Shown piece after piece: positions 37,977 through 61,069 of a stretch of DNA of 64,000 nt. Positions within the stretch are counted from its first letter, which is position 1; each line of letters starts with the position of its first letter. A program made the translations under genes and the position numbers. This DNA comes from a virus. Location of the stretch: the IMG/VR virus record IMGVR_UViG_3300044977_000094, positions 111,261 to 175,260 of that record. One strand, given 5' to 3'. The notes below the pieces were generated by a model, which ran no database searches, had not been told where the DNA came from, and saw nothing but the letters and a program-made list of their open reading frames with translations.

Positions 37977-38861
37977 TCAGATGCCCGACGGGCGGGTGAC
38001 GTAGGCGACGGCGATGGCGTCGGGGCGCACGAGCTTCGCGCCGAAGACGTGCAGGCCGCGGACGCCGTCGGCGAACGTGGTCTGCAGGCGCAGGGCCTCG
38101 GTCTGGACGATCTGCTCCGCGTAGGTCAGCGCCATCGGGTGGCCGGCCTGCACGATCCAGTTGCTGCCGCTGTAGTTGATCGCGTTGTTCGACACGTAGA
38201 TGTCGAAGCCGGCGGCGCGGCCGATCATGCCGGTGGTGAACACCTCGGACGGCTGGCCCTGCATGTCGGTGATCGCGATGAACGCCTGGGTCTGCTCCAG
38301 GAGCGCCTCGGCCCACGGCGGCACGACCACGTACCGGCCCTGCATGGGGATGTTGGCCTCGGTGAGCTGGACCTTCAGCGGCAGCAGGACCTTCTGGTAG
38401 AAGTCCGCCGGGGTGCTGGAGGCGTACAGCGCCGGGGTGACCGGGGAGCCGGAGGACCCGACCATGTTCTGCGCGGAGACGCCGGTGTACAGCGAAGCGA
38501 TGTACTGGTCGGCGTTGTCGGCGAGCTTGTAGCTGGCGCGCTCTTCCAGGTACGACTGCATGTCGCCGGCGGCCTGGCGCCGGTCGACGTCGTCGACGGA
38601 GAAGCTGAAGCTGAACGCCTGGTCGATGTTCATGTCCAGGCCGGCGTCGTTCAGGGCCTGGTAGGTCAGCGTGGAGTTCGGGGTGTAGGTCGTGATGACC
38701 GGGTCCCCGAACTGCGTGATGTGGACGACGTTTCCGGGGCCGCTGATCTCGCCCTCGTAGTCGTTGTTGACGATGCCGGGGCCGCCGAAGACAAGGTTCT
38801 TCTGGAGCGCGGCCAGGATGACCTTGCTCCAGATTTCGGGCTTGAAAGCCAGAACGGACAT
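37977..38861 (-). CDS. Major capsid protein, P22-like HK97 fold
   Basis: The 294-residue protein begins MSVLAFKPEIWSKVILAALQ, followed by KNLVFGGPGIVNNDYEGEIS and VVHITQFGDPVITTYTPN. It ends with GLHVFGAKLVRPDAIAVAYV. This is the layout of the P22 coat-like major capsid proteins of actinophages. It follows the scaffold gene. Confidence 0.88.
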   Translation of the reverse strand: MSVLAFKPEIWSKVILAALQKNLVFGGPGIVNNDYEGEISGPGNVVHITQFGDPVITTYTPNSTLTYQALNDAGLDMNIDQAFSFSFSVDDVDRRQAAGDMQSYLEERASYKLADNADQYIASLYTGVSAQNMVGSSGSPVTPALYASSTPADFYQKVLLPLKVQLTEANIPMQGRYVVVPPWAEALLEQTQAFIAITDMQGQPSEVFTTGMIGRAAGFDIYVSNNAINYSGSNWIVQAGHPMALTYAEQIVQTEALRLQTTFADGVRGLHVFGAKLVRPDAIAVAYVTRPSGI

Positions 38862-42303: not shown

Positions 42304-44028
42304 TCACTGCCCTTCCACGTCGCCGTCTTCGGGGAGTTGCGCCGCCGCGGGCGCCTTCGAGGCGTCGGCGAGCTCCTGGATCTCCTGGGAGATCGTCTCG
42401 TCGCTGTTCATGGGCGGCGCGATGGTGATCCTGGCGCGGCCTGCGAGGGCGAGACCCGTCTCCGCGTAGATCATCTTGACTTCGCGGTGGACCTCTTCGT
42501 CGCCCCAGTCCGGATGCACCATCCGCACCAGCGTCTCCTTCGACGCCGCGTCGGCTTGCGCCAACGCCCCAGCGGCCTGTGCGACTTCCAGCGGGTCCGG
42601 CGTCACCGAATCCGGGAACTCGGCCTCGGGCCGCTCCGGGCTCACGCTCGCGTCGTTGAACACCGCGCGTTTGACGGCGAGCCAGCCGTACAGGATGTCC
42701 CGCACGGCCGGGCGCCAGTACAGGAGCTTCTTGTTGCGGGTGATCTCGGTCTTGCGTTCCCGGGCCCGGATCTCGGTGGCCGTCATGGCACTGCCCTGGC
42801 TGTCGTACTCGCCGAACGTCTGGCCGGAGTACCCGGCGCCCTGGACGATGCGGTTGATGTACTCGGCGCAGGTCTGCTGGTGCTCGCTGACCCGGATCTG
42901 GAACTGGTTGGCCATGATGTCGTTGGTGCCGCCGTTGCTCGTCATCATCGAGACGGGGCTGTACACCTGCCGGTCCGGGTCGAACACGGCACCCTTGCCG
43001 CGGCCGATGTTGTCCAGGTACTGCTGCGGCACGATCAGCCGGGCCTTGGCCAGGCGCAGATCCCGCTGCCAGGACGAGTACGCCTCGTCGAGGGCGTCCA
43101 TGAGGATCTCGACGCCGGAGAAGTCGGACCGGCCCAGCGGTGCGACGGCGGGCCCCAGGTCGCGCCAGATCTTGTTGGGCCTCATATTCGGCACATACAC
43201 CACGGTCGAGGCGTCCTGCGGCATGTCGGGGAACGTGATCGCGTTGCCCTCCGACAGGTACTGCGCGAACTGGGCCGTCTCGGGGAAGTCCGTCAGCGGG
43301 TACACGCGACCGAGGTCGGTCTGGTCGCCGACGTACACGTTGTGGAAGATCGCATTCTGGCCCGGTGCGTGGGTCTCCAAGTGACGAACCACCGCGGAGC
43401 CGTCGTCGGACAGGATCCGCCAGAACGTCACGCCCAGCAGCTTGCCGTGGGAGAACATCGGCACCGCGGCATCCGCCGGAACGACGTCGATCATCGGCTC
43501 GTCGGACACGTCCGTGTCCCACGTGACCCGCAGGAACACCCCGCCGAGCCCCGAGCAGTTCTCGGCGGCGTCCAGGAGCGTGGCGTGCATGCCGTCGTCC
43601 ATCAGGCCGTCCAGGGCGTCCTGGTTCGCCGGATTCGACGCCGTGACCACCGGCGGCTTGGAAAACAGCAGGTCCGCCGACGTGGACGCGATGTCACTCG
43701 CGATCGGCACGTGCAGCTTGCTGCGCTTCTCGCCGGGCGAAGTCGGGGAGCCCCAGAAGGTGTAGGACACGGAGCCCAGCAGGCCACCGCGGAACTGGCC
43801 CGGGCGCGGCATCGGCAGCCCGGCCTCGCCCGTCGTCGAGAAGTAGCTGCGGCCCACCGGGGAGTTGTCGCCCAGGTTGTAGTACGTCCACTGCAGCTTG
43901 TCCGGGTCGCCGGACCACCACGCGTCCCAGGCCCGCATCTGCATCGTGATCGGGTTGAACTCCGGCGGCGGCCAGGGGCGTGAGTCGGTGGGCAGGAGCA
44001 TCCGCATTCGGTCGTCGATCGCTGCCAT
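42304..44028 (-). CDS. Portal protein
   Basis: The 574-residue protein has the actinophage portal features: MQMRAWDAWWSGDPDKLQWT, SKLHVPIASDIASTSADLLF, VFLRVTWDTDVSDEPMIDVV, and YSGQTFGEYDSQGSAMTATE followed by IRARERKTEITRNKKLLYW. It forms the dodecameric DNA gate at the capsid vertex. Separated from TerL by one small zinc-protein gene. Confidence 0.9.
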   Translation of the reverse strand: MAAIDDRMRMLLPTDSRPWPPPEFNPITMQMRAWDAWWSGDPDKLQWTYYNLGDNSPVGRSYFSTTGEAGLPMPRPGQFRGGLLGSVSYTFWGSPTSPGEKRSKLHVPIASDIASTSADLLFSKPPVVTASNPANQDALDGLMDDGMHATLLDAAENCSGLGGVFLRVTWDTDVSDEPMIDVVPADAAVPMFSHGKLLGVTFWRILSDDGSAVVRHLETHAPGQNAIFHNVYVGDQTDLGRVYPLTDFPETAQFAQYLSEGNAITFPDMPQDASTVVYVPNMRPNKIWRDLGPAVAPLGRSDFSGVEILMDALDEAYSSWQRDLRLAKARLIVPQQYLDNIGRGKGAVFDPDRQVYSPVSMMTSNGGTNDIMANQFQIRVSEHQQTCAEYINRIVQGAGYSGQTFGEYDSQGSAMTATEIRARERKTEITRNKKLLYWRPAVRDILYGWLAVKRAVFNDASVSPERPEAEFPDSVTPDPLEVAQAAGALAQADAASKETLVRMVHPDWGDEEVHREVKMIYAETGLALAGRARITIAPPMNSDETISQEIQELADASKAPAAAQLPEDGDVEGQ

Positions 44029-44497: not shown

Positions 44498-45784
44498 TCA
44501 GGCCGCAGCGGACAGGGGGATCCTGTTGAACCACAGGCCCTGCGAGGACTTGATGGCGTACCGGCCGCCGTCCAGCGAGTGATCGTCGGCCTTGACGGGC
44601 TTGTCGACGCCCATGAGCGCGGCGCGGTCGTCCCAGGAGTAGCCGCCGATCTCGTCGATCCACCCCTGGCAGGAGCGGGACGCTTTCAGGCGCCGCCGGG
44701 CCAGGAGCGAGGAGACCAGGCGGATCCCGTCGAGGACACCGTTGTCGGCGTCGGTCACGGGCCAGCCGTCCTGGTGGCACTGGACCTTCAGGGACGCCGC
44801 GGACGGGTCGATGAACAGGTACTGCGGAGTGGGTCCGCGCAGGTGCGTCCCCGGAAACCGCACCCCGTTGATCCACTCGCGGAGCTTGCCGGACAGCTCC
44901 ACGTCCGTCAGCTGCCGGTGCCGCTGCCGCGAGTCCCACCGGAACTCGTCCACCAGGAACAGGCACGGCTCCTGGCCGCTGTCGCCACCACCGCGGTTGC
45001 TCATGCCCAGCAGCAGCGCCGCGGTCGGAGCGGTCGTACCGTAGTCCAAGCCGATGCCCAGCCACGTGTGGATCGAGGGAATGATGTCGACGACGTGGAC
45101 AGCCGGATCCCACATGTCGTAGATCGCGCCCTCGGCGGCGCACCATTCGCCCAGGACACGGCGCCGGTACCACAGGCCCACGTTCTCGGCTTTGACGCCG
45201 GCCTTGTAGTCGTCGTCAAGGGACGGGTTGTCGTCGAGGAGGAAGTGCCAGCTGCGCAGGTCGAGCTCGTGGCTACGGAGCAGGTAGTTGCGCCGCAGCC
45301 AGTGTGCGGGGTTGTCCGGGTTGGTGGTCGCGAAGAGCTTGGCGCCGGGCACGGACATGCGGCCGAGGAGCTGCGAGAAGAACTCTTCGCTGACGAGGGT
45401 CGCCTCGTCGACGTAGGCGCCGGCGGCGGTGAGGCCGCGGAGCCTGGTTTCCGCGCGGGTGTCGTTCGCGCCGATGACCCACACGCGGCGACCCAGGATG
45501 GTGCCCGAGGGCGCGCCGGGGGTGTAGCGGGTCTGGTTGGCCAGCTCCCCGAACACCGCGTAGTCCTGGAGCGGGGAGAACACGTTCCGCATGGCGGTCT
45601 GGCTCGTCTTGGCGACGACGACGAGTTCCCCGCGGGGCGCGGCGGCCACGTACATGAGCCAGCGCAGCAGCGAGGAGATCGTCTTGCCGGAGCGGATGGC
45701 ACCGGTCCAGATGTTGATGCGCGCATCGGCCTCGGCAACGGAGCGGATCTGCTTCGGAGACAGAGGCAAGGCATTGAGCTGCAC
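44498..45784 (-). CDS. terL: Terminase large subunit
   Basis: The 428-residue protein has Walker A GAIRSGKT (28-35), Walker B YVDEAT with D126/E127, coupling motif LFATTNPDNP, and a C-terminal nuclease with GLDYGTTAPTAALLLG, YLFIDPSAASLKVQC and DDHSLDGGRYAIKS supplying the catalytic Asp residues. This is the PBSX/Terminase_6 type that pumps and cuts DNA. GTG start. Confidence 0.93.
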   Translation of the reverse strand: MQLNALPLSPKQIRSVAEADARINIWTGAIRSGKTISSLLRWLMYVAAAPRGELVVVAKTSQTAMRNVFSPLQDYAVFGELANQTRYTPGAPSGTILGRRVWVIGANDTRAETRLRGLTAAGAYVDEATLVSEEFFSQLLGRMSVPGAKLFATTNPDNPAHWLRRNYLLRSHELDLRSWHFLLDDNPSLDDDYKAGVKAENVGLWYRRRVLGEWCAAEGAIYDMWDPAVHVVDIIPSIHTWLGIGLDYGTTAPTAALLLGMSNRGGGDSGQEPCLFLVDEFRWDSRQRHRQLTDVELSGKLREWINGVRFPGTHLRGPTPQYLFIDPSAASLKVQCHQDGWPVTDADNGVLDGIRLVSSLLARRRLKASRSCQGWIDEIGGYSWDDRAALMGVDKPVKADDHSLDGGRYAIKSSQGLWFNRIPLSAAA

Positions 45785-50426: not shown

Positions 50427-51200
50427 CTATGCGGCGGTTGACTCCTGGACATACTCCGCCGCCGCTGAGATTACGGCAAACCTGCCCTCTTGGCCAGCCC
50501 TCTCCTCGGACTTGTACTTCTCGGTGAGTTCATCGGACCATGCCTGGTACTCGGCCTCGCTCATCAGGGTTTCGCAGGCCGGGTTGTGGCAGGCGATGTA
50601 GTCCTCGCCGTCGCCGAAGAACAGGGACCGCCAGCCGCACTTCTTGCACGGCGCGGACTTCTGGTCGAGGCGCACGTCCCGCCGAGTGAAGCGCGTCGCG
50701 GCCCGGTTCCAGTGGCTGATCTGCGAGGCTGGGTTCGCCGAGTCCCGGTCGTGCGTTTCCATCGCGGCCGGGTGGTGGGTGAGCGCCCAGTCGAGATGCG
50801 TGAGCAGGAACGCCACTGCTCCGGTGGCTGTCTGGCCCTCGCGTCCCCGGTCGGGGCGGGGATTGAGGTGCCGCAGGTCCCGAAGGTCGTCTTCGAGCTC
50901 GATCAGGCCGCCGACGATGAGGTCCGTCATCAGGCGGGCGGCCTGTCCGGGCCAGACGGCTTCGGGGGAGCGGCCGATCGTGCCCAGCTTGTCGCCCTCG
51001 CGTGTGCCGTTGGTGGCTTCCAGCCAGATGGCGGCGAGGAGTTCGGGGAGCTCGGAGAGTTGGCGGTAGGCGCGGCCTGTGCACGGCAGGCAGTGCACGG
51101 GGGTGCCCCAGGTGGGGGTGAGGTCGTGGGGTTCGCCGGCGGCTTCGGCTTTCCTCCACGGGTTGTTGTGAGAGCCAGGGCAGACGTTGAGCACGGACAT
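50427..51200 (-). CDS. Hypothetical phage/plasmid protein with zinc ribbon
   Basis: The 257-residue protein has an N-terminal CPGSHNNPWRKAEAAGEPHD and CLPCTGRAYRQLSELPELLA, then a helical middle. The C-terminus has CKKCGWRSLFFGDGEDYIAC, then HNPACETLMSEAEYQAW, a zinc ribbon with HTH-like tail. Proteins of this design are common beside actinophage terminase regions. Function unknown. Confidence 0.65.
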   Translation of the reverse strand: MSVLNVCPGSHNNPWRKAEAAGEPHDLTPTWGTPVHCLPCTGRAYRQLSELPELLAAIWLEATNGTREGDKLGTIGRSPEAVWPGQAARLMTDLIVGGLIELEDDLRDLRHLNPRPDRGREGQTATGAVAFLLTHLDWALTHHPAAMETHDRDSANPASQISHWNRAATRFTRRDVRLDQKSAPCKKCGWRSLFFGDGEDYIACHNPACETLMSEAEYQAWSDELTEKYKSEERAGQEGRFAVISAAAEYVQESTAA

Positions 51201-51274
51201 GGCGCAGCTCCCGGTGTGGCAGGAGTGAGGGTAGTGGCTGAGCCAAGTATGCGCCCGTGATCGTCAAGGCGCGG

Positions 51275-51466
51275 TTAGCCCGCGGTCCCGCCGCCCTCGA
51301 CCAACTCCCGATACAGCTGCTCGGCCTCGTCCCAGCTGACGGGTCGGCAGCGGGGCCCGAGCAGGACGCGCCCCCACATGTCCCACTCCCACCGGAACAG
51401 CGCTATGCGCTCGCGGCGTGACTGCCCGTCGGCCTCGGGATCCGGGTCGCTCCTCACGGACGCCAT
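51275..51466 (-). CDS. Small hypothetical protein (63 aa)
   Basis: ATG at 51466 chosen; an upstream ATG at 51508 would add 14 Arg/Ser/Pro residues that look like shadow. The product RRERIALFRWEWDMWGRVLL and SWDEAEQLYRELVEGGG is helical and aromatic. Unknown. Confidence 0.45.
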   Translation of the reverse strand: MASVRSDPDPEADGQSRRERIALFRWEWDMWGRVLLGPRCRPVSWDEAEQLYRELVEGGGTAG

Positions 51467-51529
51467 GATGCAGGGAGGCACTGACAATCGGGGGCGGGAC
51501 TCGAACATCCGCGCGCCGGACGTGCAGCG

Positions 51530-51545
51530 CCCCCGCCGACGGGGG
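51530..51545. terminator. Hairpin after the 51564 gene
   Basis: CCCCC-gccgac-GGGGG lies 19 bp after the stop of the leftward gene at 51564. Probable terminator closing the small operon 51564-52078. Confidence 0.5.
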
Positions 51546-51563
51546 ACGGCAGGGGCGGGACGG

Positions 51564-51920
51564 TCAGGCGAGGCCGGCCCAGACAGTGCCCGGGGATTCC
51601 GGCGGGTGCTCGTGTCCGGGGATGTTCCGTAGCGCCAGGAACCTGAAGCCGCTCTCGGTCTCGTGCAGCTCGCCGAAGGTGACGGATCGTCCGGCCTCGC
51701 GGTCGCTGCGGGCGGTGTCCTCGGTGATCCTGGCGCCGTCTTGGTCGTACCAGGCCGTCTCCACTATGCCGATCACACGTTCCGTCACCGTCCCGCCTGA
51801 GCCGGGCCAGCCATGTGCGGGCTGGGGTTCCTCGCTGCCCTCCGGTCGCCACCGCATCGCGTCCGCACTGCCGTGCCAGTCGGCGAGGGTGTCGTCGATG
51901 GACGCCAGGATGTCCGTCAT
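51564..51920 (-). CDS. Hypothetical protein, beta-rich C-terminus
   Basis: ATG at 51920 overlaps the upstream small gene (ATGA), giving 118 residues. MTDILASIDDTLADWHGSAD, then VIGIVETAWYDQDGARITED and VTFGELHETESGFRFLALRN. Similar proteins occur on Streptomyces plasmids and chromosomes; function unknown. Confidence 0.55.
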   Translation of the reverse strand: MTDILASIDDTLADWHGSADAMRWRPEGSEEPQPAHGWPGSGGTVTERVIGIVETAWYDQDGARITEDTARSDREAGRSVTFGELHETESGFRFLALRNIPGHEHPPESPGTVWAGLA

Positions 51921-52078
51921 GCTCCCAGTCTCCATCCCGGCGCGATCTCCGCGAGCAGCCGCATGCCAGCCTCGACACCACGCAGGTGCTGCTCGGCGGT
52001 AACGCCGCCCAGGACACGGAGATCAAGGGGCTGTGTGCCGCTGGGACGTGCGGTGTGCTCGACCTTCTTCTGTGCCAT
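51917..52078 (-). CDS. Small hypothetical protein (53 aa)
   Basis: ATG at 52078. MAQKKVEHTARPSGTQPLDL, then RVLGGVTAEQHLRGVEAGMR. Coupled (ATGA) to the gene that follows, which supports translation. Confidence 0.5.
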   Translation of the reverse strand: MAQKKVEHTARPSGTQPLDLRVLGGVTAEQHLRGVEAGMRLLAEIAPGWRLGA

Positions 52079-52109
52079 GGCTCCATCATCCTCTCCGGGT
52101 ACTGAATGG

Positions 52110-52733
52110 TCACGCCCATGGTGGCTTCCCGCCCGCTGCCCACGCGGCGAGCTGTTCCCGTTCGCATACCAGGAACTTGGCCCGGCGGCAGTACTCGGCT
52201 GCGTCCCGGGTCAGGTGCGAGGTGGTGACGATCAGGGCCACGTCGGCGCCGTGGATGACCTTCCAGGTGCCGCCGACCTTCTGTACGTCCTCGGAGGACA
52301 CGCGGTTCGACAGGGCATAGAACTTGTCCTGCACCAGCAGCTTCCGCCCGTCGGGGAGGCGTGCCAGGTTGTCGGCGGCGAAGTCGCCCGCTCCGCCGAC
52401 GCGCCGAACCTGCGTGCAGCCGTCACGGCGCAGCAGGTCCGCGGTGAAGAACTCGAAGGTGGTCGAGTTCAGGGCGAGGATCTGGTTCAGGGTGTGAGCG
52501 CGGTGGAGTCGCTGCTGCTCGCGGCGCCGGTGCATCCGAAGCTGGGCGGCGGCGGCCAGGCCGCCCGCCAGCAGGGCGACCACCACGACGCTGACGATCA
52601 GCACCGCATGGGCGGCTACCTCCTGCAGCAGCACATCGCCGGCCCAGTACGCGCCCAGCAGCCCAAGGAGCACCGCCGCAGGATGGACACGGCGGCGACG
52701 GGTCCAGCGCCGCCAGTGTCGCCGCGCGCTCAC
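52110..52733 (-). CDS. Mrr-like restriction endonuclease with membrane anchor
   Basis: GTG at 52733 overlaps the upstream stop, giving 207 residues. Two hydrophobic helices (AAVLLGLLGAYWAGDVLLQE, VLIVSVVVVALLAGGLAAAA) precede the nuclease: FEFFTADLLRRDGCTQVRRV, GGAGDFAADNLARLPDGRKL and LVQDKFYALS, which holds the Asp and QxK of the Mrr catalytic fold. Membrane-anchored Mrr-like proteins are common near Streptomyces plasmid transfer genes. The role may be defence or transfer. Confidence 0.8.
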   Translation of the reverse strand: MSARRHWRRWTRRRRVHPAAVLLGLLGAYWAGDVLLQEVAAHAVLIVSVVVVALLAGGLAAAAQLRMHRRREQQRLHRAHTLNQILALNSTTFEFFTADLLRRDGCTQVRRVGGAGDFAADNLARLPDGRKLLVQDKFYALSNRVSSEDVQKVGGTWKVIHGADVALIVTTSHLTRDAAEYCRRAKFLVCEREQLAAWAAGGKPPWA

Positions 52734-53161
52734 CGACCGGCCTGGAAGCTGGAGTTGTCGCCCTGGTGGAAGTTCTGGATCCGCACCCCGCCTGCCGACT
52801 TCACCACGACGAGCGCGACCGCGCCGCCAACCACGATGGCCGCGACACCGATGAGCGCGTGCGTGGCCAGGGCCATGCCCGCGAACATGAGGTACGACCC
52901 GGCCTCGGCGATGCCGGCGCCGGCCAGGATCCCGAACGCCATCACCCCGCAGCCGTACATGCGCTGCGGCAGCGGATCGTACGGGGGCAACGGCGCGGGC
53001 TGGTAGGCGTAGTACGGGGCGTGCCCTGGCACGGACACCACGCGGGCCGTCGGCGGCACCAGGGCGGGCGCGGCGGGTGGCGTATAGGGGGCGGGCAGGT
53101 TGGCAGGCATGGCGATCGCCTCGTCCTGGGCCCAGTCGTAGAAGTCGGTGCGGACGGACAT
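52730..53161 (-). CDS. Small membrane protein of transfer module
   Basis: ATG at 53161 overlaps the translocase stop (TGATG). The 143-residue protein has a Pro/Tyr-rich N-terminal half (PYYAYQPAPLPPYDPLPQRM) and two hydrophobic helices (GVMAFGILAGAGIAEAGSYL, THALIGVAAIVVGGAVALVV), ending RIQNFHQGDNSSFQAGR. It may act with the translocase at the membrane, like Spd proteins of Streptomyces plasmids. Confidence 0.6.
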   Translation of the reverse strand: MSVRTDFYDWAQDEAIAMPANLPAPYTPPAAPALVPPTARVVSVPGHAPYYAYQPAPLPPYDPLPQRMYGCGVMAFGILAGAGIAEAGSYLMFAGMALATHALIGVAAIVVGGAVALVVVKSAGGVRIQNFHQGDNSSFQAGR

Positions 53162-55248
53162 CAGTTCTCCTCGGCGCGGAACGCGTACAGGCCGCGGGCG
53201 GGCTGGTGGATGCGGGGATCGGCGGACAGCCACGTGGTAACCGCCGAGCGGGACGGTGCGGTCTGCCCGGGGTAGGTGTCGGCGAACACCGCGATGACGG
53301 CGGACGGGTTGATGCCTTGCGGACCGGCGCAGCGCACGATCTCCACGACCAGGCCGATGCGCGGGTCCGCCCCGGGCTTGGCCGGCGCCTCGGGCTCCTG
53401 CGGCTGCGGGGGCTTGCCCCAGTCGATGCCACCGGCGGCGAGGATCTCGCGGAACTTCTGCTCGGTGTCCGGGTCACGGTCCGTGGCGTCGGACATGGCC
53501 TCGTGCAGGCGACGGCGCACGGCCTCGGCCTCGTCGATCGCCGCCTGCGCGTCCCCGCCCGTGGGCGCCGTGGGGTTGCCCCAGTCGGCGGTGACGCCGG
53601 TGGTGCGCGGCCGCTCCACCGCCTGCTGCTCCTCAGCGACCGCACCGACCGGTACGGGGCCTGCGCCGAAGAGGTGGTCGGTGTTCTCCCAGCGACGCTC
53701 GTACGCCTCGCCCGCTGCCCGGCGGGACAGATCGTCCAGCTCGGGCTGCCGGTCGGCGCAGGCGGCGACAATGTCCCGAATCTGATTGGGCTTGATTCGG
53801 AACACCTTGAAGGGCCGCGCGGGTTCGTCGTCGACCTTGATGAATCCGCAGCCCGGATAGGGGGCCTCGTCGGGGCTTACCCGGTCGGACCAGCCGAACA
53901 GGTACGCCATCTCGGCTTCGTCGGACTTCATGCCGATCTTCAGAGCGGCCTGCTTCACCAACTGCGGTTCGGTCACGACGTCCTGGGTGGCGCGCAGGGC
54001 CGCGTTCTCGACATTGCAGGCCACCGCCCGTCCGAGCTCCAGGATCTGCACGATGATGTCGCCGGTTTCCCGCAGCACCGGATCACGCCGGGCCTTCGGC
54101 GAGAACAGCTCCGCGATCTCGTCGTCGTCCAGCACGATCCCGGGAACCTGCGGGCTGACGGGGAGCTTGTCCGTGTTGGCGGTGATCTCCAGGTGCTTGT
54201 AGCCGGGCTTGCGGGCCTTCGCGATCCGCAGCAGCGCCTTGGCCATGGCCAGCGCCTTCTCCGGCGTGTCCGCGATCCAGTCGATCGGCGGACGGCCCGG
54301 ACGGCCGGCTGCCTCCCAGGCGTGCAGCCAAGCGAGGGCGAGGCCGCCGCCGTTGAGGTCGATCACCCAGGAGAGGCAGTCCGTCATTCGGCACTGGTTG
54401 GCGAGCTTGACGTTCATCAGGTTCGTCTTGCCCGAGCCGCGGCGCCCCGCGGTGAACCCGGACCGCTCGCGCAGGTTGGGTGCCGCGTCGGTGCCGTCAC
54501 GGTAGATGCCGTGCGGATTGGGGCCGTCCAGGGACAGCGGCGAGTAGTCGGTGGGGTAGTCGGCGTCGTCGATCAAGGCGTTGACGGTGGCCACATCGAT
54601 GAGAACGGCGCCGCGGTGCTGGCCGGCTTTCATCTCGACGCCGCAGCCTTCTGGGAGGCGGGCCTCGGCTGCGAGGGAGTCGCAGTAGGGGACGAGGTCG
54701 CGCCACTTGGTTCCGCCGAGGCATTCGGCGTCCAGGGTGAGTCCGGCGCCGGATTCCCACATCTCCACGCCGACGATCTTGACGGTGGCGCCGGTGCACA
54801 CCAGGGCGATGCGGGCATCCCACTCGTCGGCGATCTTCTGCCGCTGGTAGTCCATCGTCGCCCGCTTCACCGCGGCCTCGACGTCGGCCTTGTGCGCGGC
54901 CTGCTCCTCCTCGACGCGGTGCGCGCCGACCAGGGAGATGCCCAAGCCAATCGCGCCCGCAGCCAGGGCGGCGATCACCGGCGGATGCCACGGGCCGACC
55001 TGGACAGCCCACCGGCACCACGCTCCGGTCGCCAACCACGCCGCGGCGTGCAGCGCCAACGTTGGCCAGGGCCAGCGCTTCCGGCGCCCGGCCACCGCAG
55101 TGCCCAGCAGGCCCGCGCCGGCGGCGGCCAGAGCCCAGTCGGCGGGCAGGTGCGCGACGTGCCCGGCGTACGACAGCGCCAGCGCGCTCACAGCGGCGTT
55201 GAACGGCCCGCTGACCGGCCCGTGGCCGCGATCCCAGTCGATGTGCAC
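53161..55248 (-). CDS. FtsK/SpoIIIE-type DNA translocase, TraB-like
   Basis: GTG at 55248 follows GAAGGG; GTG at 55263 and a longer frame to 55299 are alternatives. The 695-residue protein has paired N-terminal membrane segments (about residues 17-108), then Walker A GRRGSGKT (268-275), SWVIDLNGGGLALAWL, and Walker B GIVLDDDE (370-377). A C-terminal winged-helix-like end (GINPSAVIAVFADTYPGQTA) fits DNA recognition. Streptomyces TraB motors move double-stranded plasmid DNA between cells. Its neighbours (small membrane proteins, DUF2637) support a transfer module. A chromosome-pump or replication role is the alternative. Confidence 0.82.
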   Translation of the reverse strand: MHIDWDRGHGPVSGPFNAAVSALALSYAGHVAHLPADWALAAAGAGLLGTAVAGRRKRWPWPTLALHAAAWLATGAWCRWAVQVGPWHPPVIAALAAGAIGLGISLVGAHRVEEEQAAHKADVEAAVKRATMDYQRQKIADEWDARIALVCTGATVKIVGVEMWESGAGLTLDAECLGGTKWRDLVPYCDSLAAEARLPEGCGVEMKAGQHRGAVLIDVATVNALIDDADYPTDYSPLSLDGPNPHGIYRDGTDAAPNLRERSGFTAGRRGSGKTNLMNVKLANQCRMTDCLSWVIDLNGGGLALAWLHAWEAAGRPGRPPIDWIADTPEKALAMAKALLRIAKARKPGYKHLEITANTDKLPVSPQVPGIVLDDDEIAELFSPKARRDPVLRETGDIIVQILELGRAVACNVENAALRATQDVVTEPQLVKQAALKIGMKSDEAEMAYLFGWSDRVSPDEAPYPGCGFIKVDDEPARPFKVFRIKPNQIRDIVAACADRQPELDDLSRRAAGEAYERRWENTDHLFGAGPVPVGAVAEEQQAVERPRTTGVTADWGNPTAPTGGDAQAAIDEAEAVRRRLHEAMSDATDRDPDTEQKFREILAAGGIDWGKPPQPQEPEAPAKPGADPRIGLVVEIVRCAGPQGINPSAVIAVFADTYPGQTAPSRSAVTTWLSADPRIHQPARGLYAFRAEEN

Positions 55249-55277
55249 GATCAAGCCCTTCACCCAGTGACCTGGGG

Positions 55278-56684
55278 CTAGTTGGAGGCGACGTCCCACA
55301 TGCGCTCACCGGCGTGGCCCTTGCGGGGCTGCTCGATGCGGGCGATGTCGACGTCGTGGAGCTTGCGGAACGCGGGCTGTAGCTCGCTCGCCATCTCAGC
55401 TGCCTTCAGCTGCAACTGGTGGATCTGCCGCATCATTTCGACGATCTGCGGCGCCAGCGGGTACTTCGCGTCGGCGTTCTCGACCGTGACCTTCATGGCC
55501 TCGGCGTTGAGTTCCAGGGCTTGCTGGAGGCCGGCGAAGTCGGCGCCGACCTGCATCATGCCGGTGGGCTGGTAGTTGGCTGCCGCGCGTGCCGCTTCCA
55601 TGGCGGGGGCGACGAAGTGGTGTCCGGACATGGCGGGGGCTCCCGTGGTCGAGGCGGCGGTGTAGGCGGTGGGTCGTCGGACAGTGGCGGCAACGGTCGG
55701 GGCCGGCGCGGGTACGGCTTTGGCGGCCTTGCGGTTGGCGCGATGCTTGAGCCACGCGGCCTTGGCCCTCTGGGCGCCCTTGCGGAGCGACGCGTGCTTG
55801 ATCACGCCCCACAGGCCGGCCCTAGCCGACCGCAGGGCATCGGCGGCGGCGCCGCGGGCCCGGACGGCGTGGCGGCGGGCAGCAGCGCCGGCCTTGGTGC
55901 GGTGCGGCTTGCTGGCCTTCCAGGCGCGCGCGGACTGCTGGGCGGCGACACGACCGGCGCGGCGGGCGAGGGACGCGGCTGCGCCCTGCCGCTGGCCGGT
56001 CTTGCCCTTCCCGGGCTTCTGCTTCCCATGGCGGTCGGTCTTGCCGGTTCCGCCGCGCATCCGGTCCGCGAGCCGCGCCAACCGCGAGTCCCCAGTGGAA
56101 CCTGCGCTGGAACCTCTGCGGGTTCTGGGGCCGCCGGAACCTGGGGCCGAGCCGGAACCTGATCGGGTTCGGGGCGAACCGGTTCCGACGGAGCCGGTGG
56201 TCGAACCAGGGCGAGAGGTTCGCGCGGAACCAGCAGAGCCCGAACCGGCGCCCGACCGTGACGGAACCGACCAGGACCCGGTTCCGCCGGACCGGTTCGC
56301 GCGGGCAGTCGTCCGACGCTTCACGGTCCCGCGGCGGCGAACCACCCCCGCGGCACCAACCCCGACCATGCCGACGCTTGCGGCCGCCAGGACAGGCCAG
56401 CCGCCCGCCGCGTAGGCACCCGTAGCGGCGAGCGTGGCAGCGTTCCCCGCGGCGGCCAGAGCAGGGCCGGCCGGGATGCCGCGGCGGTGCTTGGACGGGC
56501 GGCTGGGCGGCTGGTGCTCGGCGGATGCGGGCTGCTGCCAGTCGGCCGTGACCGCAGGCACCGGAGCCGCCACGGGTGCTGGGGCCGGGATCGTCGGGGG
56601 TGCTGGCGGGGCCTGGGTGTCCGCCACGGGGGTCTCCTTGATGTCGTCGTAGTCGTCGTCGCTGGGCCGGGAGGGGCAGGTCAT
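55278..56684 (-). CDS. Basic low-complexity protein upstream of translocase
   Basis: The 468-residue protein has an acidic/Pro-rich start, a hydrophobic stretch (GPALAAAGNAATLAATGAYA and GGWPVLAAASVGMVGVGAAG, residues 72-110), then a long Gly/Ser/Thr/Arg-rich region and a Lys/Arg/Ala-rich region to residue 340. It ends in a helical domain (QALELNAEAMKVTVENADAK and VEMMRQIHQLQLKAAEMASE). It looks like a membrane-tethered DNA-binding transfer accessory protein. One repeat cluster (56046-56343) lies inside it. Confidence 0.65.
   Translation of the reverse strand: MTCPSRPSDDDYDDIKETPVADTQAPPAPPTIPAPAPVAAPVPAVTADWQQPASAEHQPPSRPSKHRRGIPAGPALAAAGNAATLAATGAYAAGGWPVLAAASVGMVGVGAAGVVRRRGTVKRRTTARANRSGGTGSWSVPSRSGAGSGSAGSARTSRPGSTTGSVGTGSPRTRSGSGSAPGSGGPRTRRGSSAGSTGDSRLARLADRMRGGTGKTDRHGKQKPGKGKTGQRQGAAASLARRAGRVAAQQSARAWKASKPHRTKAGAAARRHAVRARGAAADALRSARAGLWGVIKHASLRKGAQRAKAAWLKHRANRKAAKAVPAPAPTVAATVRRPTAYTAASTTGAPAMSGHHFVAPAMEAARAAANYQPTGMMQVGADFAGLQQALELNAEAMKVTVENADAKYPLAPQIVEMMRQIHQLQLKAAEMASELQPAFRKLHDVDIARIEQPRKGHAGERMWDVASN
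56046..56343. repeat. GAACC/GGTTC cluster 1 (17 copies)
   Basis: GAACC or GGTTC occurs 17 times in 298 bp, many as GGAACC or GGTTCCG. In this gene the sites I tested by frame read as Gly-Ser or Gly/Arg-Thr codons in one phase, so protein selection could explain part of the cluster. See cluster 2 for phase-independent copies. Confidence 0.75.
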
Positions 56685-56747
56685 GCGCGTACAGGGGGTG
56701 GGGTGGGTGTCGTCGTCGCCGTGGGCGACTACGACGACGACGCGGGT

Positions 56748-57713
56748 CTAGCCGCCCTCGCCGTGCTCCTCGGCCCAGGTGGTACGGGCCTCGATGAGCC
56801 GGTTGTAGGCGGTCGTCTTGGACATGCCGGTCTGCTCCTGGACGAACTTGAGCTTCACGGTGTCGTAGCCGTGCTCCTGGATCAGGTCGAGGATCTGCTG
56901 CACCTGATCGAGGACCGACGGCGTGCCGGGATTGGTGGGCTTGGCCTCGGCGGCCGGCTTGGGCTTGCTGCGCTTCGGCTGGGTTCGAGTGAGATTCGGT
57001 TGACCCGGATCCGCAGGTTCAACGGCCGCCGACGGGAGAGGTTCGGAACCAGCCGGAACCTGGGGTGCTGCGGGTTCCGGAACCTGCCCGGGCCGGTGAA
57101 CCTCTACCGGTTCGGGCTCCGAGGGGCGCGCCTGAACCTGGTTCGGAACTTCCTCGAATCTGTCCGGGAGGGGGAGGTTCAGGACGTAGGCGCGAACCAG
57201 GTTCCAGGTTCCCTTGTGGTCGAACAGGAACCGCAGCGGGTGGAGGCGGGGGCGAACCTCGGCTCCGTCGCGGCGCTTCGCGGCGGCCCGGACTTCCGAC
57301 ATGAGCCCTTCGAAGAGGATCACTGCGGCGGGTGGCATGAGGGCGGCGACGTCCCGGCCGACGGGGTCGCTGATGTGCTCCCAGTTGATCCACGACGACA
57401 GGGCGGTGAAGGCGACGATCAGGGTGCGCCAGAGCGTTGCGGATCGTCCGTGGACGCCGGCGCGCATGACGACGATGGATAGGCCGGCGGGGGCGCCGTC
57501 GAAGGTCATGGGGACGAGCCATGCGGATCGGTGGCTGAGCATCATGTGCTGCTCGCCGAAGAGGTGGAGGCCGATGAAGCTGGCGGACCAGCCGGAGAGG
57601 GCGACGACGAGGACTAAGGCGAAGCCGAAGCCGCCGAGTCCGGTGTCGCGGAGCCAGAGGGCGGCGTGGCGGCTCCAGGCTGCGGCTCGGTCGAGCTTGC
57701 CTGTGTCGGTCAC
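56748..57713 (-). CDS. DUF2637 (Spd-like) membrane protein with C-terminal HTH
   Basis: GTG at 57713. Residues 15-150 form the DUF2637 domain: several membrane helices (GFGFALVLVVALSGWSASFI), then WLVPMTFDGAPAGLSIVVMR and WINWEHISDPVGRDVAALMP. Residues 165-250 are a Pro/Glu-rich linker. The last 55 residues (VQQILDLIQEHGYDTVKLKF and VQEQTGMSKTTAYNRLIEAR) are an HTH. DUF2637 proteins accompany TraB/FtsK genes on Streptomyces plasmids and AICEs. The membrane-plus-HTH layout could link DNA to the transfer site. Confidence 0.8.
   Translation of the reverse strand: MTDTGKLDRAAAWSRHAALWLRDTGLGGFGFALVLVVALSGWSASFIGLHLFGEQHMMLSHRSAWLVPMTFDGAPAGLSIVVMRAGVHGRSATLWRTLIVAFTALSSWINWEHISDPVGRDVAALMPPAAVILFEGLMSEVRAAAKRRDGAEVRPRLHPLRFLFDHKGTWNLVRAYVLNLPLPDRFEEVPNQVQARPSEPEPVEVHRPGQVPEPAAPQVPAGSEPLPSAAVEPADPGQPNLTRTQPKRSKPKPAAEAKPTNPGTPSVLDQVQQILDLIQEHGYDTVKLKFVQEQTGMSKTTAYNRLIEARTTWAEEHGEGG
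56982..57258. repeat. GAACC/GGTTC cluster 2 (17 copies)
   Basis: Seventeen copies lie in 277 bp inside the DUF2637 linker, including GGTTCGGAACC and GGTTCCGGAACC palindromes. On the coding strand the motif is read in different phases (GAA CC, xGA ACC, xxG GTT C), so amino-acid bias alone does not explain it. Candidate recognition repeats for the nearby translocase or ParB. Confidence 0.78.
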
Positions 57714-57776
57714 GGTGCTTCTCCTCCGGGGATGGGGTGGGGCCGGGCAGCGATGGGCTGCCCGGCGGTGGGTGTG

Positions 57777-57902
57777 TCAGACGTCGGTGTCGATCGGGGT
57801 GGGGCGCATGCGCTGGGGCTCGTCGTTGCTGGGCTCGGGCTCGTCGTTGCTGGGCTCGGGCTTGTCGTCGCTGGGCTCGGGTGTGCTGCTGATCGGGTTC
57901 AT
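57777..57902 (-). CDS. Small acidic repeat protein (41 aa)
   Basis: ATG at 57902 follows GAGAGGAACGCC. The sequence repeats PEPSNDE/PEPSDDK three times, reflecting a 21-bp DNA repeat at about 57820-57880. Tight position before the DUF2637 gene suggests translation. Function unknown. Confidence 0.5.
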   Translation of the reverse strand: MNPISSTPEPSDDKPEPSNDEPEPSNDEPQRMRPTPIDTDV

Positions 57903-57993
57903 GGCGTTCCTCTCGTTGAGCTGGCTGTGGGTGGCGGCCGCGCTGCCGCGGGGGACGGTGTTCAGCGCGGCCGCCGGTCTGGGTGCGGGTTGG

Positions 57994-58134
57994 CTACTGG
58001 GCTCTGCCTGCGGTGTCGCCCTGGAGTCGTACGGGCTCGGCCGGTCGTTCCTCGTAGAGTCCTTCGGCGATCTCCGCGTCGGTGGCGGGGTGTTCGGGCT
58101 GGCCGTAGCCGACGAGGGTGGGTTCGTCGTTCAT
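57994..58134 (-). CDS. Small hypothetical protein (46 aa)
   Basis: ATG at 58134 overlaps the upstream stop (ATGA). MNDEPTLVGYGQPEHPATDA, then EIAEGLYEERPAEPVRL. Acidic, unknown. The 91 bp from 57903 to 57993 has no gene I can support. Confidence 0.5.
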   Translation of the reverse strand: MNDEPTLVGYGQPEHPATDAEIAEGLYEERPAEPVRLQGDTAGRAQ

Positions 58135-58355
58135 GCGGCGCTGCCGTAGTCGCTGGGCTGGCGGGGGCTTGGGATGCGGGGGATTGCGGGGCCGTCGTCG
58201 GCGTCTCCGAAGGCGCGGTCGGCGTGGTGGGCGTCCCACAGGTCGCGGGCCAGGGGCCGGGCGGTGAGGCGCTGGCGCGGCGGGGCCGGGCGCGGGCGGA
58301 GCGTGGTGACGCGCGGGGCGTCTGTGCAGGTACGTGACTGCTCGGTACTCTCCAT
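58131..58355 (-). CDS. Small hypothetical protein, first gene of leftward transfer operon
   Basis: ATG at 58355 follows GGAAGGTCTCCC. The 74-residue product includes ARDLWDAHHADRAFGDADDG. It faces the HTH gene at 58571 across the palindromic operators, so it marks the start of the leftward operon running toward the translocase. Confidence 0.55.
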   Translation of the reverse strand: MESTEQSRTCTDAPRVTTLRPRPAPPRQRLTARPLARDLWDAHHADRAFGDADDGPAIPRIPSPRQPSDYGSAA

Positions 58356-58485
58356 GGGAGACCTTCCTCGGTGCTTAGCGGCTTGAGGTGGGTCTGGCCC
58401 CGGCCATGCGGCGTTGCGAGCGCCGGCCGGGGCCATTTGCTGTTGATCGATACGGAGCACTGCGTGAGTGCGACGCATAGACCAC

Positions 58486-58525
58486 GCTAGAGCCTAGGCT
58501 CTAGCAATGCAAGAGCCTAGGCTCT
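58486..58525. promoter_or_regulatory. Two perfect palindromic operators, 23 bp apart
   Basis: GCTAGAGCCTAGGCTCTAGC (58486-58505) and AGAGCCTAGGCTCT (58512-58525) share the core AGAGCCTAGGCTCT, and their centres are 23 bp apart, about two helical turns. A TAATAT -10-like box (58525-58530) overlaps the second. They sit between divergent genes 58355 and 58571. Confidence 0.8.
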
Positions 58526-58570
58526 AATATGGCCATGCTGTCGCGCCCTCACGGCACGAAGGGAGCGGGA

Positions 58571-58882
58571 GTGGCACAACACCCAGAGGAGGTGCAGCGC
58601 ATCATGGACGCCATCGCCGCACTCGAAGGCATTGATGACGACGGAGCATGCATCCGGGCCACAACCGACCTTCTTGATCAGTGGCCCGCGCAGCACGCGC
58701 GGCTCCGGGAGCTCAGGCAGCAGCGTGTCCTGAGTCTTCGAGAGCAGGGCAAGACCTGGCGCGAGATCGGCGACCTCATGGGCGTGCACTTCACCCGCGC
58801 CAGGCAGATCGCAGCAGGGCAGCGCGGTGAGAAGAACCGGCCCAAGAAGGCCGAATCCGACCCGCCAACAACCCAGGAGTGA
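58571..58882 (+). CDS. Sigma-like/HTH regulator of transfer module
   Basis: GTG at 58571 with AAGGGAGCGGGA upstream gives 103 residues; ATG codons at 58529 and 58535 overlap the operator and are less likely. HTH VLSLREQGKTWREIGDLMGV, then HFTRARQIAAGQ resembles sigma-70 region 4-like folds. N-terminal helices may dimerise. It likely binds the adjacent palindromes to control the divergent transfer operon and itself. Confidence 0.7.
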   Translation: MAQHPEEVQRIMDAIAALEGIDDDGACIRATTDLLDQWPAQHARLRELRQQRVLSLREQGKTWREIGDLMGVHFTRARQIAAGQRGEKNRPKKAESDPPTTQE

Positions 58883-58884
58883 CC

Positions 58885-59349
58885 ATGACCGCCACCCGCG
58901 AGCTCACCCACTACGACTACGACACTGCCCCCTTCACCCCCGGGGAGACCCAGGGCATCAGCCGCTTCGAGGCCGCCGTCTACGGGACCGCGATCCACGA
59001 CTGCTTCGACCAGTTCGACGCCGACTCGATCCGCGACCACACCGCCGAGTTCGGGGAGCTGGCCGCGCGCAGCTTCCTCAAGGAGCTGGCCGGCTACCTC
59101 AATCAGTGGCACCTGGCGGTCGACGGGCTGATCGGCGACCTCCTCACCTGCACGTCGGAGTACAGCCGATACAGCACCGCCGCGGCCCGCTATCTCAAGG
59201 ACAAGGCCGAGGAGTACCACCACGTGCGCCAGGACTTCGAGTACGCAGTGACCGTGTGGACTCTGGGCCTGGATCCGGCGCCGATGGGGAACTATGCGCC
59301 GGCCACCCGAGGGCTGGACCTTGGGATGCAGGCGCTGTCCTACGAGTAG
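58885..59349 (+). CDS. Hypothetical plasmid-type protein (154 aa)
   Basis: ATG at 58885 follows GGAG, just after the regulator stop; GTG 58879 is an alternative. The protein is helical (FGELAARSFLKELAGYLNQW and YLKDKAEEYHHVRQDFEYAV). Similar genes are found on Streptomyces plasmids; no function known. Confidence 0.55.
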   Translation: MTATRELTHYDYDTAPFTPGETQGISRFEAAVYGTAIHDCFDQFDADSIRDHTAEFGELAARSFLKELAGYLNQWHLAVDGLIGDLLTCTSEYSRYSTAAARYLKDKAEEYHHVRQDFEYAVTVWTLGLDPAPMGNYAPATRGLDLGMQALSYE

Positions 59350-59361
59350 CCCCCACATGCA

Positions 59362-59396
59362 GCAGCCCCCGCCCAATTCGCCTGGGCGGGGGCTGC
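59362..59396. terminator. Bidirectional terminator hairpin
   Basis: GCAGCCCCCGCCC/GGGCGGGGGCTGC, a perfect 13-bp stem with 9-nt loop, between convergent genes. Plus-strand readout ends TCTTTCTGC, giving a short T-run. Confidence 0.75.
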
Positions 59397-59407
59397 GTCT
59401 TTCTGCG

Positions 59408-59956
59408 TCAGGCGGCGTTCCCCAGCAGGTACTCGTCGATCGTCATCCCGCGCAACGCCAGCGCCTCGCCCACCGTGGCCGTCCCGCACTCCGTCACCAG
59501 GGCGCGCAGGCTACGGGCGGTCTCCCGGTTGTACACCAGCGGCGCCATCTTGCCGTCCATGCCCTCGATGACCGAGCTGAGGTCGTCCACGGTCATATCC
59601 TCCAGGCTGGTGTCCTGCCAGAACAGGGCCTGCGTCTCGGGATCGCGCCGCCGCAGCGCCTGGACGCCCGACAGTCGCACCAACTTCTCGCCGTCCCGGG
59701 TCTGCACCGGGTGGCGCGTCCGGTCCCAGGACTTGAAGCGCCGGATGTGGCCGGCGCGGGCGTCCTCGTCCATCACCCACTTGGCCCAGGTGCGCTGCGC
59801 CTGGATGGCGTCGTTCAGCAGCTCGTGGAACCTGTCGCCCATCTCGCAGCTGGGCCGGCGCTGGCCGTTCTCGTCGAACCCCGCCTCGAAGACGAGGGCG
59901 TCGTACTCGGCGCGCTCCTCCGCACTGAGCATGTTCCGGATGTTGCTGTTCCTCAC
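59408..59956 (-). CDS. ParB-coupled hypothetical protein
   Basis: GTG at 59956 overlaps the ParB stop (GTGA). The 182-residue protein has MLSAEERAEYDALVFEAGFD, then a mixed body and MDGKMAPLVYNRETARSLRA. It is always produced with ParB, so a partition or ParB-regulating role is plausible, but no ParA-type Walker motif is present. Confidence 0.55.
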   Translation of the reverse strand: MRNSNIRNMLSAEERAEYDALVFEAGFDENGQRRPSCEMGDRFHELLNDAIQAQRTWAKWVMDEDARAGHIRRFKSWDRTRHPVQTRDGEKLVRLSGVQALRRRDPETQALFWQDTSLEDMTVDDLSSVIEGMDGKMAPLVYNRETARSLRALVTECGTATVGEALALRGMTIDEYLLGNAA

Positions 59957-60960
59957 TGATTTCCTCCGGCGAGGCGTAGGCCAGGCTTGGGCCTGGCCGT
60001 GTCGATGCGGTCGAACCAGTCGTCGACCGCGGCGCGGAGCCGATCCAACTCGGCCCAGCGCTCGGATCCGTCCCGACGCGAGGTGAGCGCCTCGGCTACG
60101 CGGTCCGGATCCAAGATCGTGAAGTTGCGCAGCGCTACGCAGGCCGAGGTGTAGTTCTTGAACACCAGGGCGAGCTGGACATCGGGGTCCTTGCCGAGAT
60201 GCTCATCGAGTGCCTTGCGCACCGCTTGGTGCGCCGGGTTGATGGCCGCGCCGGTCTGGGCGAGCGCGGGCATCTGCTTGCGGGCGATCTCGCGGACCGG
60301 CTCAGGGACCGGCTCCTCATGCTTGGCGCTGCCGGCGCCGACGGTGCGGGTGCCACGCTCGGCGATCTGCCGAACCTCGTCCACCTTGTCGATGGAGCTA
60401 CCGGAGAAGCCAGTGGTGACGGCGCCCACCTTGCGTGCAGCCGCAGAGGTCGGACTCGTTGGAAACTCGTCCAAGTTGGACGAGTTTCCGCGGTCAGCCT
60501 TTGGCTCCTCCCAGAATCCGTCCTGCGGGATCTCCGGCTCGACCGTCTTGGCGGGGCGCCCGGGCTTGCGGATTACCGCCGCCTCGGTAAGCACCTTGAT
60601 CCGGCGTTCGCGCATCCGGCTGGCCTCCAGCGGGGACAGCGGCTTGCGGCAGGTGTTCTCGTCAGCTTCGGCGCGCAGGGCCTGCTCGGCGCTGAACCAG
60701 TCGACGACGGTGACCGGCGTCTCGGTCCAGCCGAGCTGCCGGACCGCAGCGAGCCGTCGCCCGCCGGCCACGAGGTCCAGGTTCGCGGTGACGACGATCG
60801 GGTGAAGGAGACCGACGGCAGCGATGGACGCAGCCAATTCGTCGATCCCGTCGATGACTTGACGGTCGCGCTCGCCGACGCGAATGGCGTCGAGCGGGAC
60901 GGCGTCGGGGGTGGTGCCGGGTGCCCCTGGGGGAGGGACTTCTGTGGTGGCGATTCCCAT
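59953..60960 (-). CDS. ParB-like nuclease/CTPase-domain protein
   Basis: ATG at 60960 gives 335 residues; a TTG 13 codons upstream is possible. The ParB N-domain is PLDAIRVGERDRQVIDGIDE, LAASIAAVGLLHPIVVTANL, DLVAGGRRLAAVRQLGW, then RAEADENTCRKPLSPLEASR. The middle is a low-complexity linker, and the C-terminus has QAVRKALDEHLGKDPDVQLA. Plasmid ParB proteins bind parS and load onto DNA. There is no ParA gene in view, so it may act alone as a regulator or in replication. Confidence 0.82.
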   Translation of the reverse strand: MGIATTEVPPPGAPGTTPDAVPLDAIRVGERDRQVIDGIDELAASIAAVGLLHPIVVTANLDLVAGGRRLAAVRQLGWTETPVTVVDWFSAEQALRAEADENTCRKPLSPLEASRMRERRIKVLTEAAVIRKPGRPAKTVEPEIPQDGFWEEPKADRGNSSNLDEFPTSPTSAAARKVGAVTTGFSGSSIDKVDEVRQIAERGTRTVGAGSAKHEEPVPEPVREIARKQMPALAQTGAAINPAHQAVRKALDEHLGKDPDVQLALVFKNYTSACVALRNFTILDPDRVAEALTSRRDGSERWAELDRLRAAVDDWFDRIDTARPKPGLRLAGGNQ

Positions 60961-61069
60961 GCCTATTGAACGATTGGCGTCACGGAAATGCGCCCGCAAT
61001 CTTCCAACTACTTCTCGTTCATGCAGGTCAGACGGTGCGTTACCTACTCCACGAGTCCTTCACGAACGG

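Follow-up and report, generated by a model that had tools for sequence, protein, structure and literature searches.

How might an element that carries both a set of virion genes and an FtsK-like DNA motor mark its own DNA for that motor? This question is raised by a 64,000-nucleotide stretch of viral DNA (the window), which spans positions 111261-175260 of the 175,260-bp IMG/VR record IMGVR_UViG_3300044977_000094. In this window, genes for an FtsK/TraB-type motor, a Spd-like protein and a DUF2637 protein form a cassette close to the late genes of a siphovirus. Our results suggest that the cassette is exchangeable, and that the DUF2637 protein would bind arrays of a short word within the cassette's own genes and thereby present the element's DNA to the motor, a reading to which we assign a probability of roughly 0.55. 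Genes were called over the entire record, which according to self-comparison consists of two divergent phage units arranged head to tail, ~85-90 kb each: unit A (~1-89.5 kb) and unit B (~89.5-175 kb), with the window inside unit B.

Short-word arrays and the C-terminal domain of DUF2637

The coding sequences of the DUF2637 and Spd-like genes contain 34 sites of the word GGTTC or its complement GAACC, in both orientations and in several reading frames (Table 1). By short-word counting, site density was 24 per kb where the arrays lie and 2.1 per kb in the rest of the window. The array in the DUF2637 gene fills all six classes of frame and orientation, and the array in the Spd-like gene fills four. 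Synonymous-codon shuffling, in which protein and codons were kept, covered the 76 genes of at least 200 codons in the record. Only 3.5 sites were expected in the Spd-gene array instead of the 17 observed, and the Spd-like and DUF2637 genes ranked first and second of the 76, both for GGTTC. A blind scan of all 5-mers, which sought two-orientation, multi-frame clusters across the same record, placed the Spd-like gene of the window, the DUF2637 gene of the window and the DUF2637 gene of unit A at ranks 1-3; array 2 was the top cluster (Poisson 1.6e-18) and array 1 the second. Because sites in both orientations and many frames cannot arise from protein repeats or slippage, the arrays are a feature of the DNA level.

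In most relatives, an array of a different word lies at the corresponding place. The DUF2637 or Spd gene holds a word at z of at least 4 in 32 of the 46 testable elements, an element being testable if at least one of these two genes was. The words differ by lineage (CGCTAC, CGCCCC, CGCCAC, CGAAGC, CAACG, GGGCA, CGACG, GTTCA and others). Yet the words of the DUF2637 and Spd genes agree within an element (r 0.24, versus 0.09 between elements), and 0 of 20,000 permutations gave a value as high. In contrast, 29 conserved chromosomal DUF2637 genes from Streptomyces-type loci lacked arrays (median top z 2.4 versus 3.8; Mann-Whitney p 5e-9), the one outlier among them being a single-frame repeat. A chromosomal DUF2637 form with the C-terminus ...ELEEDHIA is widely conserved. 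The DUF2637-like gene at L036:6522-7529 has a CAACG array, with 26 sites versus 6.8 expected; its protein, without a Pfam match, ends in a different helix-turn-helix (HTH) that by eye looks like MerR or excisionase.

Which protein domain does the word follow? AlphaFold2 predicts four N-terminal helices for the DUF2637 protein of the window, a disordered linker (amino acids 190-262) and, with confidence, a C-terminal HTH (amino acids 267-317). Across elements, the word correlated with this HTH, both for DUF2637-gene words (Mantel r 0.47, 34 elements, p 2e-4) and for Spd-gene words (Mantel r 0.59, 18 elements, p 2e-4). The correlation held after control for FtsK, and likewise for the DUF2637 N-terminus (DUF2637-gene words) or the Spd protein (Spd-gene words). 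Correlation with the FtsK C-terminus was 0.14 for DUF2637-gene words and -0.08 for Spd-gene words.

Domain swaps point in the same direction. Word correlation was 0.34 for the same HTH with a different N-terminus, 0.18 for the same N-terminus with a different HTH and 0.11 where all differed; the HTH classes behind these contrasts come from visual inspection of the protein sequences, and the Mantel tests are independent of them. In alignments, the window, L009 and L051 have a common membrane domain and differ in both HTH and word. Conversely, L015 differs from L016, L031 and L034 in its membrane domain, while HTH and CGCTAC are common to all. L039 and L048 have HTH and word in common with unrelated motors, and L033/L050 and L038/unit A likewise share a word and an HTH despite unrelated FtsK families. 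The held-out test was small, as an HTH-domain search of 296 genomes yielded few new loci: with two HTH classes as bait, new loci came to light in which the words were as predicted, of CGCTAC type in L087 and CGCCCC in L091/L092 (a single event in two identical copies).

The cassette in its phage surroundings

Does the cassette really belong with the phage genes beside it? In the independent 80.8-kb viral contig L008, genes for ParB, DUF2637, the Spd-like protein, FtsK, the small membrane protein, the Mrr-type protein and the homologue of 50427-51200 follow one another in identical order. FtsK and Spd genes with DUF2637 upstream also lie less than 10 kb from terminase or portal genes in L010, L015, L016, L017, L034, L043 and L044, and the terminase families beside the cassette vary (phrog_2, phrog_9, phrog_38). 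Cassette and phage genes also occur together in L044 (73.8 kb) and L050 (84.8 kb), and in the finished circular 51.8-kb Streptomyces plasmid NZ_CP108596.1 the gene order is unchanged and a full virion set is present. That the cassette came to lie beside phage genes by an accident of assembly or recombination is therefore scarcely credible. The record itself might raise the suspicion, since this 175-kb contig holds two units and its origin is uncertain, but the same synteny is found in L008, a single-unit contig, and its repetition in independent contigs and in the finished plasmid rules out an accidental junction for the cassette. Homologues of the block occur beside terminase and portal genes of independent phage contigs and not only on chromosomes or unrelated plasmids, in agreement with the original prediction, which had joined the block to the phage.

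The cassette of unit A is found at the corresponding position, with conserved genes on either side (Mrr-type and small HTH proteins; identities in Table 1), but its motor, Spd and DUF2637 proteins had no BLAST match to their counterparts in the window, and the motors of units A and B belong to two families without a profile match between them. Therefore, the cassette is exchanged either whole or piecewise. Its synteny shows it to be an exchangeable block, with a presumed function in DNA transfer or spreading, of a Streptomyces-type temperate siphophage and phage-plasmid lineage. A gene for a membrane-anchored Mrr-type nuclease domain protein stands beside the motor in both units (window 52110-52673; L005:12977-13591), despite the unrelated motors.

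The motor has N-terminal membrane helices, a RecA-like motor with Walker A motif GRRGSGKT and a C-terminal winged-helix-like domain (motifs; AlphaFold2 model with a predicted local distance difference test score of 80). Its model best matched the FtsK motor and TcpA, the conjugation coupling protein of pCW3, in Foldseek (E ~1e-15); a sequence search gave no PDB match for the window motor. Modelled fold and motifs show an FtsK/TraB-type membrane DNA translocase, which is presumably active as such. The motor appears far from the host divisome FtsK and, as the original prediction implied, is not chromosomal-FtsK-like: chromosomal Streptomyces FtsK scored 16 bits against the profile of the window clade, whereas related motors of elements (AICE-like, from actinomycete integrative and conjugative elements; plasmid; Hiyaa) reached 578-992 bits. 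This chromosomal comparison consists of profile scores, the motor tree having no chromosomal FtsK rows.

Table 1. Positions of the arrays, cassette genes and phage genes in the window, and of arrays behind FtsK in relatives
Feature	Position	Strand	Remarks
Array 1: 17 GGTTC/GAACC sites in DUF2637 gene	56982..57258		mostly linker-coding part; starts 56982-57254
Array 2: 17 GGTTC/GAACC sites in Spd-like gene	56046..56343		starts 56046-56339
FtsK/TraB-type DNA translocase, 700 aa (amino acids)	53161..55263	-	phrog_31069 'FtsK/SpoIIIE-like' E 5.5e-82
Spd-like low-complexity protein, 468 aa, hydrophobic stretch	55278..56684	-	directly upstream of motor
DUF2637 protein, 321 aa	56748..57713	-	Pfam PF10935 E 1.4e-31
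Small membrane protein, 143 aa	52730..53161	-	homologues in L008, L033
Membrane-anchored Mrr-type endonuclease domain protein	52110..52673	-	Pfam PF04471 (Mrr_cat) E 4.8e-17; unit A homologue 43% identical
ParB-like protein, N-terminal ParB domain	59953..60960	-	Pfam PF02195 (ParB_N) E 1.5e-7
Small HTH protein bounding cassette	58529..58882	+	homologue in unit A, 46% identity
Putative DNA-binding protein, between cassette and late genes	50427..51200	-	phrog_1568 E 2.3e-13
Terminase large subunit	44498..45784	-	phrog_2 E 9.8e-44
Portal protein	42304..44028	-	phrog_533 E 1.3e-99
Major capsid protein	37977..38861	-	phrog_267 E 3.7e-66
Tape measure protein	28022..32443	-	phrog_4197 E 6.3e-54
Endolysin	17280..18170	-	phrog_291 E 3.8e-27
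Serine integrase	9347..10816	-	phrog_95 E 2.3e-74
Post-FtsK CTGTC/CTTGTC-type array	L021:12095-12237; L045:11918-12214		same place in L020, L022-L024, L026, L028-L030

The original prediction described a plasmid-transfer and partition module joined to a complete siphovirus set, with an integrase on the other side; it did not include the in-gene arrays, and the two-unit record lay outside its view. The genes that it named (FtsK-like motor, DUF2637, small membrane protein, Mrr-like and ParB-like proteins) are indeed present on the minus strand beside a complete virion gene set (terminase, portal, capsid, tape measure and endolysin, by PHROGs), and the integrase proved to be of the serine type. 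The transfer part stands insofar as synteny places the FtsK-Spd-DUF2637 cassette in the phage lineage. Partition, however, is not established, because the ParB-like protein is an orphan: no ParA-type P-loop ATPase was found among the predicted proteins of the 175-kb record. The DUF2637 assignment is clear (110 bits, versus a Pfam gathering cut-off of 22.8). The Spd-like protein had no Pfam or PHROG match; its gene immediately precedes FtsK in most relatives. Upstream of the DUF2637 gene, a small open reading frame contains a 21-bp tandem repeat (57812-57881; 3.3 copies, 93%).

The two units of the record (~89.6 + 85.6 kb; pieces L002-L007) have a tyrosine-type integrase in one and a serine-type integrase in the other. 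Their DNA identity is mostly 70-80% over aligned parts, with shorter stretches of ~90%, and their structural proteins are mostly 55-95% identical. The longest exact repeat in the record measures 137 bp (at 10,599 and 100,169), the final 31 bases are identical to positions 65-95, and the record ends have 97 bp in common at 82%. Two origins are conceivable for the record: a genuine tandem or co-integrate, or the merging of two co-resident circular phages during assembly. The contigs of several relatives hold one unit each and measure 74-87 kb. As for existence as an autonomous plasmid, the relative NZ_CP108596.1 is a circular plasmid, and the record has a serine integrase and no ParA among its predicted proteins. 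Rfam and tRNA searches of the window gave no matches. Replication-initiator-like genes, homologous between the units, contain word clusters of their own, CTCATGA in g189 (L007:7939-8131) and AAGCA in g41 (L002:18468-18758), which resemble the origin inside a lambda O-type gene. Unit A also encodes a 528-amino-acid protein (L005:8678-10264) that by eye looks like a Ro60/TROVE-type RNA-binding protein.

A possible membrane tether and its alternatives

How could such arrays serve the element? DUF2637 is a predicted membrane-anchored DNA-binding protein, and from the co-variation we infer that its C-terminal HTH would recognise the short sites that its own gene carries where it encodes the linker, and those in the next gene, spd. 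Bound to the arrays, DUF2637 could hold the element's DNA at the membrane beside the FtsK-like motor and hand it over for spreading. As long as the element is a prophage or plasmid, the motor might then drive double-stranded DNA through the cross-walls of a hypha or into an adjacent one, such that the window element would move through the mycelium and have virions as a second route of spread. A joint swap of HTH and array would change specificity, much like an incompatibility group. The chances seem to us about even that the DUF2637 proteins of mobile elements form a new class of self-encoded membrane tether, in which HTH and word are swapped together and each element has its own address for docking at the membrane and for DNA transfer.

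Several observations weigh against this reading. Neither the DUF2637 protein nor its HTH gave a significant match in the fold search. Arrays were weak or not found in L014, L020, L021, L025, L035, L038, L042, L046, L047, L051 and Hiyaa, and the GC-rich words CGCCC, CGCCA and CGACG are less secure than GGTTC, CGCTAC, CAACG, CGAAGC and GTTCA. Among the held-out loci, L088, with a more distant HTH (49% identity), carries GCTCA and not CGCTAC, and L089 (HTH 42% identity) lacks a clear array. A weaker partial correlation of the words with distance over the whole FtsK protein persists (0.20 and 0.32). The correlation with the HTH is inflated because array and HTH sit in one gene, a bias that the Spd-gene test lessens but does not remove, and the word-HTH correlations partly reflect linkage and shared descent. 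Moreover, no DUF2637 or array was detected in pZL12, the only case here with reported transfer.

The main functional alternative is that DUF2637 and its array are a stability or centromere-like segregation device, with the motor only helping to sort the prophage-plasmid into spores, without cell-to-cell transfer. It has this place because the closest precedent, SpdA2 of pIJ101, affects segregational stability and not transfer: SpdA2 binds palindromes in its own gene, and loss of either lowers stability after sporulation and leaves transfer unaffected (PMC4170104). An orphan ParB-like gene nearby would also fit a segregation device. We still consider this rather unlikely, as the motor-DUF2637 pair is also present in AICE-like relatives with integrase, Prim-Pol and FtsK genes, in accord with transfer. 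A ParB-parS reading of the arrays is unlikely as well, since arrays are also present in elements in which no ParB homologue was found nearby. It is very improbable that the word clusters are functionless by-products of low-complexity linkers in high-GC genes, produced by slippage or codon bias. They do lie in disordered or low-complexity coding DNA, and several of the words are GC-rich, but slippage cannot yield inverted sites in multiple frames, the signal is lost in shuffles that preserve protein and codons, two unrelated genes share a word within one element, and chromosomal DUF2637 genes show no such clusters. Frame and orientation spread and synonymous shuffling thus reject protein-level repeats or slippage as the source of the arrays.

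Alternatively, the arrays might be clt, read by the C-terminal winged helix of the FtsK/TraB motor, with DUF2637 an ordinary spreading protein. TraB of conjugative Streptomyces plasmids binds 8-bp TraB recognition sequence (TRS) repeats at clt (PMC4170104, PMC12857230), the modelled window motor appears to have such a domain, and a separate CTGTC-type array after the FtsK stop codon of AICE-like relatives has a plausible clt position. This explanation is nonetheless improbable: the word does not track the FtsK C-terminus (Mantel values above), and the three pairs with unrelated FtsK families have one word where the DUF2637 HTH is shared. The Mantel tests thus disfavour the FtsK C-terminus as reader of the arrays. 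The separate arrays of the AICE-like relatives, of CTGTC/GACAG or CTTGTC type and in two orientations, lie right after the FtsK stop codon (Table 1) and are candidate clt sites. Another repeat cluster, of CCGCTACC type with ~11-13 copies, lies at ~15-19.5 kb in L020, L024, L025, L026, L029 and L030; it is located near the replication and integrase genes (Prim-Pol, DUF3631) of these AICE-like elements and possibly represents iterons.

Binding of the arrays by DUF2637 would have wider consequences. DUF2637 was present in 150 of 150 Streptomyces-type genomes (1-14 copies each) versus 0 of 14 control genomes, and it is seldom named in the literature searched, subscription papers being outside that search. 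The in-gene arrays and their co-variation with the HTH suggest an undescribed system that tethers an element's own DNA to the membrane. The arrays offer a concrete and cheap prediction of what mobile-element DUF2637 proteins bind. They also hint at a way in which TraB-like motors could locate their cargo, and at a reason why two related phage-plasmids might coexist, as units A and B differ in motor, HTH type and word. If true, phages and conjugative elements would have an exchangeable docking system in common, and a double lifestyle of phage and mycelial spread would become directly testable.

Comparison with known systems

The original prediction regarded the combination of phage and transfer genes in one element as unusual. 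The combination recurs in independent elements, but it was already known from pZL12 (phage ZL12), and therefore the window is a further case of a known pairing. pZL12 is circular, 90 kb long and carries phage genes; next to its packaging genes lies an FtsK/SpoIIIE-like gene, gp71, whose product is a distant relative of the window motor. Transfer of pZL12 is reported in PMC3583192, which cites Zhong et al., and pSLE1 is syntenic with pZL12 (PMC4487206). In addition to the missing DUF2637 and array, pZL12 differs from the window in its motor (27% identical over 58%) and in the presence of both ParA and ParB (PMC4487206).

Plasmid unnamed1 of Streptomyces sp. NBC_01177 (NZ_CP108596.1) is circular with the same gene order, a motor 51% identical over 99%, DUF2637 and Spd-like genes, a serine recombinase and a complete siphovirus set. 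It differs in its size of 51.8 kb, in its terminase and capsid family, and in a CGCCCC array with the matching HTH class. The Streptomyces phages Hiyaa, Spocter, Keanu and Galactica carry an FtsK-like gene 33-35% identical to that of the window, with a DUF2637-like gene upstream of it in Hiyaa. However, their genomes measure 81-83 kb with another plan around the motor (seen for Hiyaa), and Hiyaa has no clear array. Among AICE-like relatives, L024, L026 and L030 for example unite the motor-DUF2637 pair with an integrase and with replication genes of Prim-Pol or DUF3631 type, but no phage late-gene homologue was found within 10 kb of the motors of these relatives.

The TraB/clt conjugation systems of pIJ101, pJV1 and pSVH1 resemble the window in their FtsK-like motor, its C-terminal DNA-binding domain (putative in the window) and neighbouring spd genes. 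Their sequence match to the window motor is weak (pJV1 TraB 36 bits, pIJ101 Tra 28 bits), and the array of the window lies in coding DNA and tracks DUF2637. The SpdA2/sps system of pIJ101 is likewise based on a DNA-binding plasmid protein with sites inside its own gene (PMC4170104). The SpdA/sps palindrome of 12 bp (CGTCACGTGACG), present one to three times inside the spdA gene or close to it, does not describe the arrays of the window, which consist of GGTTC/GAACC sites. For SpdA2, most sites comprise 2-3 copies of a single 12-bp palindrome common to many plasmids, whereas the window combines 17+17 short sites and exchangeable words with a predicted membrane-anchored protein.

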